Shown: piece by piece, positions 17,475-42,330 of the stretch
Layout: every line of letters begins with the position of its first letter
Numbering within the stretch: the first letter of the stretch is position 1
NCBI RefSeq assembly: GCF_030691135.1
Contig: NZ_JAUYFA010000103.1
Location: 1-58,028 of the forward strand
Origin: Phreatobacter sp.
GTDB lineage: Bacteria > Pseudomonadota > Alphaproteobacteria > Rhizobiales > Phreatobacteraceae
DNA length: 58,028 nucleotides
Direction: 5' to 3'
Program-made: the position numbers and the translations under genes
The notes under the pieces: model-generated
Seen by the model: only the letters and a program-made list of their open reading frames with translations
The model's database searches: none
What the model was told of the DNA's origin: nothing

Positions 17475-17507
17475 TCGTCACGGTCGGCATGGCCGATCAG
17501 TGACTGG

Positions 17508-17532
17508 AACGGCCCCTTCGGGGGCCGTTTTT
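17508..17532 (+). terminator. Rho-independent terminator of rpmG
   Basis: A 9-bp stem (AACGGCCCC / GGGGCCGTT) closed by a UUCG tetraloop is followed by a run of five T (17528-17532), 34 bp after the rpmG stop. It also marks the left edge of the low-GC defence island. Confidence 0.9.
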
Positions 17533-17553
17533 CGTTCCAGGCACCTTCGGCAG

Positions 17554-19233
17554 TCACTTTGTTCTGCTGTTCGGCAGCCTCGGTTTGCCTTTGACCATCC
17601 TGGTCGCGCTGCGGCGTTTCCTGCCTGGTGGAGATTCAGTTGCCTGTTCGGCCGTAGGGTGCGGCGTTTCCATTATGCCTTCAAGCATCGAGCCCGGTAA
17701 CATCACCTTCTTGTCTGCGAACTTGGCAATCAGTTCTTTTAAGTGGTTAACCTCATCAGCAACGTACGAGTCGCCGTACACTTCTAGGCAAGGCAGCGGG
17801 ATCTTCGCCTGCCATTCCATAGCAACACCGGTTGTATCTTTTCGGCGATTTTTCTCAAAAAGGTCGCGGTACCTAAATGGCGCGATGCCAATGAACGGCT
17901 CAAACGACACTTTCCCCTTCTGCGGAGTGTCTTGGCGAGTAAGAACAATGTCGTCCCGATAAAGCTCGTGAGCGTAGCTTTTAGGGTATGGTTCAATATA
18001 GACAACCCGATCTATTCCGGACGAGATTATATGTTTTGCACACAAATGACACGGAAACGTCGTGCAGAACAATGTCGTTCCGTCAAGCGACACTCCTTTG
18101 CGGGCCGCATCTGTAATGGCGTTCATTTCCGCATGTATGATACGCCCATACTCAATAATATCCATCATCAGTAGTTTTCGGTTTAGATCCACCCCCTTTT
18201 CATGTTCCACTTTTGCAATAAATTCTCGGGACCCTAATTTCGCATATTCTTTTGGAAGCAAGTCCGCCTCACACAGCTTCCTAATAATATCCCCAAAAAT
18301 ACGGTGTTTGAACTCGTCGTTTGTATCGGCTCCTGTAACGAATTCGCGCGCGTCACCTTGATCTCCCTCCCAATACGTGCCCCCGAAGGGGCTCGGGACC
18401 TCATTGCAACCTAACACCCGAATTTCGCCCGACTTAGAGAAGACTGCCGCGCCGACCTGACGCGATAAATCAACAGAGCGCAAAGATGCCGACTTTGCGA
18501 TGTACATCCCATACTCTTCGCGAGTTGGAGAATGAAAATTGTGGCCAAAGACAAGACGCAGGAAGCGTTCCGTTGTCTTGCTAATTGTCTCGTTTGACGT
18601 TGCGTCAATGAATACGTCGGCAAGCGGAAACACATCCACAACCCGCTGCCCGTGCAAGAGCGCCGTTTCACTCTCGTCACGATTAACAAGTTCCAACGCG
18701 CTAGGTGCAAAGTCTATTGCTCGGGTTTTTGTGCGATCATGGTCCCGCATTTTCCTCGCGAGGCGTGAGCGCCGCTGCTCAGGATCGGCCCACACCGACA
18801 CCTGAAAGACCTGCTTGCCGTACAGTTGGCGATAGAATCGGATTTCTTCCGGACGCTTCAGCTGTCGGATAATATATGCAATGCCAGGACGATCGCCTTC
18901 GGCGCGCCCGTCTCTCTGTTCCGCGAGTTTTGCGCGCTCAGCGCGAATCTGAAATAGAGATAGGATTGCCATGAGGCGGTCGTCATCGAGGCTTTTGCGA
19001 AGTTCGTTTGCGCCCGATATGAGGCGATCGTAACGCTCAGCGAGCGTATCAAATGGCCCTCCGAGGCTTTCTTTTATGAGGGGAAGAAGTTCGGTGATGT
19101 GGATGTGCACTGCCTTATAATTGTATTGCTGTAACTGAGTTTCAAATCGCTGATTTATTGCATCAAGATCTACGCCGACTGGCCCTGCCAGACAAAAAAA
19201 TAGCTCTGGCCTAGTGATCTTATTTTGTGCCAT
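17554..19233 (-). CDS. Anti-phage dCTP deaminase (AvcD/DCD family)
   Basis: 559 residues. The N-terminal part (~10-230) resembles a P-loop kinase-like domain whose nucleotide loop is degenerate: CLAGPVGVDLD, with no Walker Lys-Ser/Thr. The C-terminal part (~240-430) is a zinc-dependent deoxycytidylate deaminase domain: HAEMNA with His367 and catalytic Glu369, and PCHLC with Cys395 and Cys398. This architecture is that of AvcD-type defence deaminases, which deplete dCTP/dCMP during phage infection and are held inactive by an upstream small RNA (AvcI) in the described systems. The gene is clearly AT-richer than its neighbours (60-bp samples at 18001 and 18241 are 42-43% GC against 73% at 16561), indicating horizontal transfer. 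Confidence 0.88.
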   Translation of the reverse strand: MAQNKITRPELFFCLAGPVGVDLDAINQRFETQLQQYNYKAVHIHITELLPLIKESLGGPFDTLAERYDRLISGANELRKSLDDDRLMAILSLFQIRAERAKLAEQRDGRAEGDRPGIAYIIRQLKRPEEIRFYRQLYGKQVFQVSVWADPEQRRSRLARKMRDHDRTKTRAIDFAPSALELVNRDESETALLHGQRVVDVFPLADVFIDATSNETISKTTERFLRLVFGHNFHSPTREEYGMYIAKSASLRSVDLSRQVGAAVFSKSGEIRVLGCNEVPSPFGGTYWEGDQGDAREFVTGADTNDEFKHRIFGDIIRKLCEADLLPKEYAKLGSREFIAKVEHEKGVDLNRKLLMMDIIEYGRIIHAEMNAITDAARKGVSLDGTTLFCTTFPCHLCAKHIISSGIDRVVYIEPYPKSYAHELYRDDIVLTRQDTPQKGKVSFEPFIGIAPFRYRDLFEKNRRKDTTGVAMEWQAKIPLPCLEVYGDSYVADEVNHLKELIAKFADKKVMLPGSMLEGIMETPHPTAEQATESPPGRKRRSATRMVKGKPRLPNSRTK

Positions 19234-19346
19234 TGGTCTATCCAGCTTTTATTTTCTTGAGGGTGACACTTTTTGGGTGACTTGGCGTTAACTAATTGCT
19301 AGCGTGAATCGCTGAGAATATGCAGGAAATTACGGGAGAAACTGCC

Positions 19347-19541
19347 ATGCCACAGCCAAATAGGGGTTGGCTCGCAATGCAAATGTCCCAAGTGCTTCAC
19401 TCACAAGCTAACGACCATTCTGTAGTAGGCAAACACATTAATAGCGCCGCAGTCAAAATTTACGTAGACACTGTCACTCGCCGTTTTACCCATACTGTTG
19501 ATAGGCCAGAGTCCTGTACCGGAAAAGCCAACCGCTCGTGA
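19347..19541 (+). CDS. Small hypothetical ORF divergent from the dCTP deaminase
   Basis: A 64-codon ORF starting MPQPNRGWLAMQMSQVLH. GGGAGA (19334-19339) is placed eight bases before the ATG at 19347; a longer form from 19320 lacks a comparable site. The product is polar, has no transmembrane segment or signal peptide, and matches no family I recognise. It lies 113 bp from the deaminase start in the opposite direction, so the two could share a regulatory region. It could be a genuine small partner gene, part of a non-coding regulatory RNA, or chance. Composition alone does not decide. Confidence 0.35.
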   Translation: MPQPNRGWLAMQMSQVLHSQANDHSVVGKHINSAAVKIYVDTVTRRFTHTVDRPESCTGKANRS

Positions 19542-20019
19542 AGGAACTGAGTGCGTTCCGAAACTCGCGCTTTGTCCTCAGCTCTGAAAACATGATGTTT
19601 GGTCGCCCGTCTCCTTAGGTTCCTATGGTTGTTTTTATCGGCCGTTGGAAGAACAGCGCCAAACTTCTCAGATGGGCGTCTTAACCAAAATTGCCGTCCT
19701 GTCCGCAACGACAGCATCGAATCCGCCGTTCGCGACTCGCTACGGTTTTCTTTGTAGAACTGAATTACACAAACAAGGTGGCCGGCCGGGCCAACGGCAA
19801 AGCGGAGAGGCCATCCGCGCCGAACCCGACCGGCCTGCCCCACGGTCCCAGGAGATGCGGCGGACCTGAGTGCACGCAGGGTGTCGATCAGACCGACGCA
19901 GATGTCCCGTAAAGGAGATCACGGCCTGATCTGGCGAGACCCTAGAGACCGGGCGGGAAAGCGACAATATCCGCAGACCGAATATGTCGATATACCGTTC
20001 CTTAACCTCAACAAACGCG

Positions 20020-42222: not shown

Positions 42223-42255
42223 GGTCGGAGGCTCAGCGGTTCAAAAAGGGCGGAT

Positions 42256-42330
42256 GGTGAGCGGGGAGGGGATCGAACCCTCGACCACATGATTAAAAGT
42301 CACGTGCTCTACCGCTGAGCTACCCGCCCA
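42256..42330 (-). tRNA. tRNA-Lys (anticodon UUU)
   Basis: A 75-nt cloverleaf on the minus strand, including an encoded CCA. The acceptor stem is GGGCGGG / CCCGCTC (one G-U pair), the D arm GCTCAGCGGTAGAGC, and the anticodon stem-loop ACGTGA-CTTTTAA-TCATGT with anticodon TTT at 42296-42298. The T arm is GAGGGTTCGATCCCCTC. The discriminator is A. TTTTT follows at 42245-42249 on the transcript strand, a possible termination signal. Confidence 0.97.

Follow-up and report, generated by a model that had tools for sequence, protein, structure and literature searches.

In Vibrio, the anti-phage deaminase AvcD is held inactive by AvcI, a labile RNA encoded adjacent to avcD, and is freed when phages stop host transcription, whereupon dCTP and dCMP drop (as described in excerpts of PMC10511110 and PMC12409362). 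A second point of comparison is the DCD anti-phage dCTP deaminase, which the NCBIfam model NF041025 and the PADLOC dCTPase model describe as one protein, without a facing small gene. A third is the Type II toxin-antitoxin system, whose genes usually stand in tandem. The locus we investigated lies in a stretch of 58,028 nucleotides from Phreatobacter sp. (contig NZ_JAUYFA010000103.1, positions 1 to 58,028), which we refer to as the window. It resembles the Vibrio AvcID system, as far as the excerpts of PMC10511110 and PMC12409362 describe it, in that a deaminase of the same family is adjoined by a short companion and sits in an acquired island. It differs in that the companion is a divergently encoded ORF of 64 codons, of a kind with codon-type conservation, that no AvcI-like RNA was found in an Rfam search and a fold check made without an AvcI model, and that the promoter gap carries a CcrM site, with CtrA sites in some relatives. 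With the DCD deaminases the locus shares the model score, the catalytic residues and the two-domain architecture, whereas the facing small gene has no counterpart in the models. If the partner inhibits the enzyme, the pairing of an enzyme with a small and diverse protein would also recall a Type II toxin-antitoxin system, but the window genes are arranged head to head rather than in tandem. Among the matches listed, we found no description of a pair of AvcD and facing small gene in the open-access literature. Together, the small gene opposite avcD and a promoter of cell-cycle type appear to set the window system apart from the known AvcD/DCD forms.

The deaminase is encoded on the minus strand at 17554-19233. 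A sequence-only reading of the window had described the 559-residue product as an AvcD/DCD-type deaminase with a degenerate P-loop and intact zinc-binding and catalytic residues, and this description was borne out at each point. The product scores 434.3 bits with NF041025 ("anti-phage dCTP deaminase"), above the equivalog cut-off of 400, and matches the PADLOC dCTPase model with an E value of 5.3e-155 (515.8 bits). The motifs HAEMN and PCHLC are found at residues 367-371 and 394-398, and H367, A368, E369, P394, C395, H396 and C398 are invariant in all 62 aligned sequences, the window included; the HAE and PCxxC residues that make up the zinc and catalytic site are therefore intact in the window AvcD. 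The P-loop region reads GPVGVD and is devoid of the Walker-A lysine, as in the relatives: across the 62 sequences, lysine is not among the six residues found most often at the Walker-A positions. Homologues shorter than 440 aa were left out of this alignment and of the AvcD tree. The AlphaFold model (mean pLDDT 84.6) comprises an N-terminal degenerate P-loop kinase-like domain, a C-terminal dCMP/dCTP deaminase domain and a low-confidence tail at residues 526-559, where pLDDT falls below 50. Foldseek matched the model to dCMP deaminases and to adenylate-kinase-like folds, in a table that gives no aligned ranges; matches to both folds, together with the model, place a P-loop-like domain in N-terminal fusion with the deaminase. 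Judged by profile and residues, the product belongs securely to the anti-phage dCTP deaminase family, and by analogy with the family the enzyme would deaminate dCTP and dCMP and so deplete the deoxycytidine nucleotides available to a phage.

The gene is carried by an island at 17536-19771 (2236 bp), delimited by GC content and by blastn breakpoints against same-genus sites. The low GC content reported from the letters alone was confirmed over the whole island (50.2% against 66.8% across the window), as was its position right after the rpmG terminator, a plus-strand hairpin at 17509-17533 that forms the left edge and has similar hairpins at the same place in several same-genus sites. The same reading had placed the island between rpmG and pleD. 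This holds for the rpmG side, but the immediate right neighbor is the ecpR1 sRNA (19775-19884, minus strand; Rfam RF02500, 77.4 bits, gathering threshold 60), which forms the right edge and is followed by pleD. In Sinorhizobium meliloti, too, ecpR1 is located between divK-pleD and rpmG (excerpt of PMC4414408). From the rpmG stop to the end of ecpR1 the window measures 2302 bp, against 86, 87 and 84 bp in G002, G007 and G010; in the comparison which the sequence-only reading had proposed, these are near-empty sites. The interval spans 102 to 1195 bp in seven further same-genus genomes and about 1.9 kb (by blastn) in an eleventh, G005. Since the interval varies in size and content among same-genus genomes, it is a small variable site within the genus. 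In G005, which belongs to another Phreatobacter species, it holds a 591-codon ORF (L045:335-2110, minus strand) that we named sulfatase/LTA-synthase-like by eye from its sequence; also by eye, the ORF here is a small one of membrane type and about 50 codons in two other same-genus genomes, and a different one of about 90 codons in two more.

The island is acquired DNA, as the near-empty or differently filled sites of same-genus relatives reveal. That the acquisition was recent, as had been proposed, agrees with the two same-genus genomes whose PleD is 98% identical and whose intervals measure 86 and 398 bp against the 2302 bp of the window, and with AvcD matches being limited to two genomes among 12 of the genus; the copy in the second of these, G003 (42% identity), is located at another place. 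The edges are as unmarked as the initial reading had found them: neither a target-site duplication nor a terminal repeat was conspicuous, a Pfam scan of avcD and three small ORFs recognized no recombinase in the island, and the sole tRNA gene detected across the window occupies 42255-42329. A mobile-element insertion with visible ends was ruled out for want of a duplication or repeat at the edges. The island's non-coding DNA was found in one of 101 genomes, the window's own, so that relatives gave no other copy, and plasmid relatives of the island DNA were limited to short avcD stretches in three records. At the left end (window 17500-17544) the island contributes 12 nt whose sequence complements the base of the rpmG terminator (92%), and with this extra arm rpmG and avcD could share a longer terminator that works in both directions. 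At the other end, 230 nt of low-GC island DNA (19542-19771) extend past the small gene with no recognized feature.

Within the order, 23 of 397 genomes have an AvcD match at E 1e-40 or better, and the nearest relative found is that of Salinarimonas ramus (L051, 55% identity). Broken avcD copies occur among L004, L079 and L071; the copy of L079 (genome G103) is split and has an in-frame stop, and that of L071 has one in-frame stop. In L069, a record labelled Frankia sp. RB7, the 620 nt upstream of avcD are identical to contig C106 of G339, a genome from the window's order, and the record is probably mislabelled. In the Sulfidibacter chromosome (L091, L112) the region upstream of an avcD relative contains a divergent ORF, phage-tail-like as judged by eye, and an identical stretch is present in the viral collection.

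The sequence-only reading had seen a single gene in the island. This part is probably mistaken, as avcD genes of the clade to which the window belongs are accompanied by a small divergent ORF whose conservation is of the codon type. In the window, a second, small gene probably lies in the island at 19347-19541 on the plus strand, which would encode 64 aa behind the ribosome-binding site GGGAGA and resembles the small protein facing avcD in S. ramus: the local alignment of the two reaches a z of 8.5, with none of 300 shuffles as high, and the next best of all other counterparts reaches 3.3. We compared the regions upstream of avcD in 81 sources (56 named contigs, six viral-collection contigs, 18 unnamed-genome loci and the window), of which 70 were kept after leaving out loci whose match starts beyond residue 15 or that have less than about 150 nt upstream. 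An ORF counted if it had an ATG and a ribosome-binding site, spanned 40-110 codons, pointed away from avcD and lay 20-180 nt from the avcD start. Such an ORF is present in 32 of the 70 regions, the window included (shuffles: mean 4.75, range 1-7). With the duplicates L112, L113 and L117 dropped from the class counts, it was found in 27/39 alphaproteobacterial loci overall and in 26/31 of those at 36.9% identity or more, in 1/23 non-alphaproteobacterial loci, which are mostly more distant (0/10 at 36.9% identity or more), and in 3/5 viral contigs. Three of the five misses have a facing ORF nonetheless: in L057, which has a GTG start, and in L061 it carries the GWL motif and fails the start rule, and in L101 it is of the RRG type and read from TTG. 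No facing ORF of the small-gene kind was found in L067 and L121.

The third codon position is the least conserved in 10/10 pairs of relatives, which share loci among them, in protein-guided and nucleotide alignments alike; therefore, the small ORF of the relatives looks like protein-coding DNA. In the nucleotide alignment of the window with L051, identities of 0.45, 0.69 and 0.49 at positions 1, 2 and 3 carry no codon signature, and this pair is too diverged for one. On the AvcD tree (57 rows, none of them from L113-L127), the 25 rows with the small-ORF label all fall within a single group of 28 (support 100/97), and the label requires two changes against 18.9 in shuffles. The labels include L101 despite its TTG start; L105 (Verrucomicrobiota), inside the clade, was left unlabelled, as its ORF meets the ATG-plus-RBS rule but is unconvincing by look. 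A search at class level added five AvcD loci with best matches outside the labelled group, one of which (L157) is a copy of L103, and none of the five has an ORF under the ATG-plus-RBS rule.

The facing ORFs span 48-76 codons (proteins of 48-76 aa) and fall into an RRGPYVI-D-DL type, a type with a GWL-type motif, and others. Among 39 small proteins, W[LFV] after G, D, E, N or S is present in 12 and an RG-type motif in 15, with both in four. A profile built from 11 RRG-type proteins has matches at E 0.01 or better in 12 of 397 genomes; the six matches with E below 1e-6 are all beside avcD, and the other six lie inside longer frames. Since four of the six strong-match genomes supplied or duplicate rows of the profile, the independent support consists of G103, G190 and the absence of strong matches elsewhere. 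The facing ORF of Pararhizobium gei is annotated as a hypothetical protein. No Pfam family was found for the window's small protein, whose predicted structure is a weak two-helix model with weakly placed helices (mean pLDDT 68). Because the small proteins are very diverse across loci, one common function is not assured.

The two start codons are separated by a shared promoter gap of 113 nt (19234-19346). On the strand of the small gene, a consensus match to a -10 box, TAGCGT, is found at 19300-19305 after TGC (extended -10 type), and directly after it stands GAATC (19306-19310), an instance of GANTC, the CcrM methylation site. Within 60 nt ahead of the small gene, 25/29 loci carry GANTC (shuffle mean 7.2, maximum 15), which ranks first of the 16 palindromic 5-mers there; the arrangement TANNNT-N0-4-GANTC is found in 15/29 (shuffle mean 0.6, maximum 4). 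For these counts L069 was dropped as a near copy of L070, and the starts of L114 and L005 were moved by hand to an inner ATG. Over the whole gap, with Pararhizobium added, GANTC occurs in 26/30 loci (shuffle mean 11.07, maximum 20) and an exact TTAA-N7-TTAA, which we take to be the CtrA box, in 7/30 (shuffle mean 0.07, maximum 2). Among TTAA pairs spaced N2 to N14, the spacing is N7 in eight of nine gaps, two of these eight being near copies, and N4 in one. Gaps of 50-200 nt before other genes contained GANTC in 15/96 and TTAA-N7-TTAA in 0/96 cases; these came from up to 34 named sources, which coincide only in part with the avcD set, and were unscreened against the avcD gap. A stricter set of 51 gaps, from 21 sources of the same loci with the avcD surroundings left out, gave 12/51 and 0/51, with GANTC in 2/13 of the divergent ones. 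As the motifs had been spotted by eye beforehand, the initial statistics on them are post hoc; the loci, moreover, are related to one another.

The GcrA-type heptamer YGAKTCK (excerpt of PMC7987155) is found on the small-gene strand in 15/29 loci (shuffle mean 1.07, maximum 5) and on the other strand in four; the window's heptamer, TGAATCG, departs from it, and the window is outside the 15. Nor does the window gap contain a full CtrA box, having only GTTAAC. The genome encodes GcrA (181.6 bits) and a protein with a RAMA domain as in CcrM (71.4 bits). In Caulobacter, GcrA binding at promoters depends on methylation (excerpt of PMC3667746). Taken at the level of motifs, the promoter gap seems to be linked with the cell-cycle circuit of alphaproteobacteria, and we infer that CcrM, GcrA and CtrA may control it.

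A subsequent search, which covered 247 genomes from a single family, yielded eight new loci, six of them usable once L162, with insufficient upstream sequence, and L158, a near duplicate of L054, were set aside. The small ORF is present by the rule in four of the six and GANTC in five, where for L163 and L164 GANTC was read in the 200 nt upstream of avcD and not in the 60 nt before the small ORF; L163 has a small-ORF candidate by eye only, and in L164 no recognizable small ORF was found. An exact CtrA box is present in two of the four loci checked by script. Both motifs thus recur in held-out loci. GANTC upstream of avcD is not clade-specific, however, because it also precedes out-of-clade avcD genes, in 3/5 of the class-level loci; it is likewise found upstream of avcD in L121 and not in L067 or L080.

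By a narrow margin of belief, we favor reading the locus as a compact defence unit of the AvcD/DCD kind with a divergent small partner, most likely an inhibitor, and a promoter tied to the cell-cycle circuit. AvcD would deaminate dCTP and dCMP and starve a replicating phage of deoxycytidine nucleotides, and in the uninfected cell it would be kept off by a labile inhibitor. In the window's AvcD clade this inhibitor would be the small protein encoded head to head, instead of or besides an RNA of the AvcI type; once a phage halts host transcription, the inhibitor would decay and AvcD would be freed, as published for AvcID. The small gene would be read from a methylation-marked promoter: most loci have a CcrM site before it, about half have this site closely following a -10-like box, and a minority have a CtrA box in the gap. 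The small gene may then be read during replication, when loss of dCTP would be most harmful to the host. The inhibitor role of the small protein is a guess from layout, diversity and analogy. A more far-reaching version, which we offer tentatively and would sooner doubt than accept, is that the clade's immunity is a two-protein system wired into CtrA-GcrA-CcrM, in which a methylation-sensitive inhibitor promoter would be read at fork passage and protect replicating cells, avcD would be under CtrA in part of the clade, and a phage take-over or the arrival of the island in unmethylated form would upset the balance of the pair and either trigger the defence or delay it.

Other explanations have to be weighed against this unit of deaminase and inhibitor. 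The C-terminal domain of the window AvcD is of the dCMP deaminase kind, as it would be in a housekeeping dCMP deaminase acquired by chance. However, in the profile search that the sequence-only reading had suggested, the ComEB model reached 55.2 bits against a cut-off of 219.45 while the anti-phage model lay above its own, and the presence of AvcD in the order is patchy; we dropped the housekeeping identity on these scores and consider it extremely improbable. An alternative that keeps the enzyme as it is would make the locus an ordinary member of AvcID, with an unrecognized upstream RNA as the inhibitor and the facing small ORF as a bystander. The Vibrio AvcI is such an RNA, encoded adjacent to avcD (excerpts of PMC10511110 and PMC12409362), the 230 nt past the small gene are without an assigned feature, and the small ORF of the window has one strong relative only, L051. 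However, the small ORF recurs across the clade with codon-type conservation in 10/10 pairs of relatives, and the 538-nt upstream stretch folds no better than its shuffles (z 0.62) and has no match in 100 other genomes or in Rfam, which makes this explanation quite unlikely in our judgment. A structured upstream RNA was dropped as a candidate on the fold and Rfam results, no AvcI model having been used, and a conserved upstream stretch that we first read as an AvcI-like RNA proved on inspection to be the facing ORF.

The small protein may also belong to the system in another capacity, as a phage sensor that activates AvcD or as a local regulator of transcription. Divergence around a short shared core would suit a phage-facing sensor as well, and a divergent gene beside its own promoter would suit a regulator, but the window's protein has no Pfam family, and its weak two-helix model decides little; we regard a role other than inhibition as somewhat unlikely. 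As to the promoter, GANTC is a short motif, some out-of-clade avcD genes are also preceded by it, and the targets of GcrA and CcrM vary much across species (excerpt of PMC7987155), as would be expected if the motifs were ordinary promoter make-up and conferred no cell-cycle control. Against this stand the frequencies of GANTC and of the CtrA box in the avcD gaps compared with both control sets, which have no CtrA box, the first rank of GANTC among the palindromic 5-mers, and the N7 spacing in eight of the nine gaps with two TTAA 2-14 nt apart. We therefore deem ordinary promoter make-up an unlikely account of the motifs.

Where we saw the small gene of this clade annotated, it was as a hypothetical protein and nothing more. 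Should the small protein inhibit AvcD, a defence that is otherwise controlled by RNA would gain a protein-controlled branch. If the promoter signals act, antiviral nucleotide depletion would be timed by the bacterial cell cycle, and such timing, if true, would bear on how a cell can carry a dCTP-destroying enzyme without poisoning its own replication.
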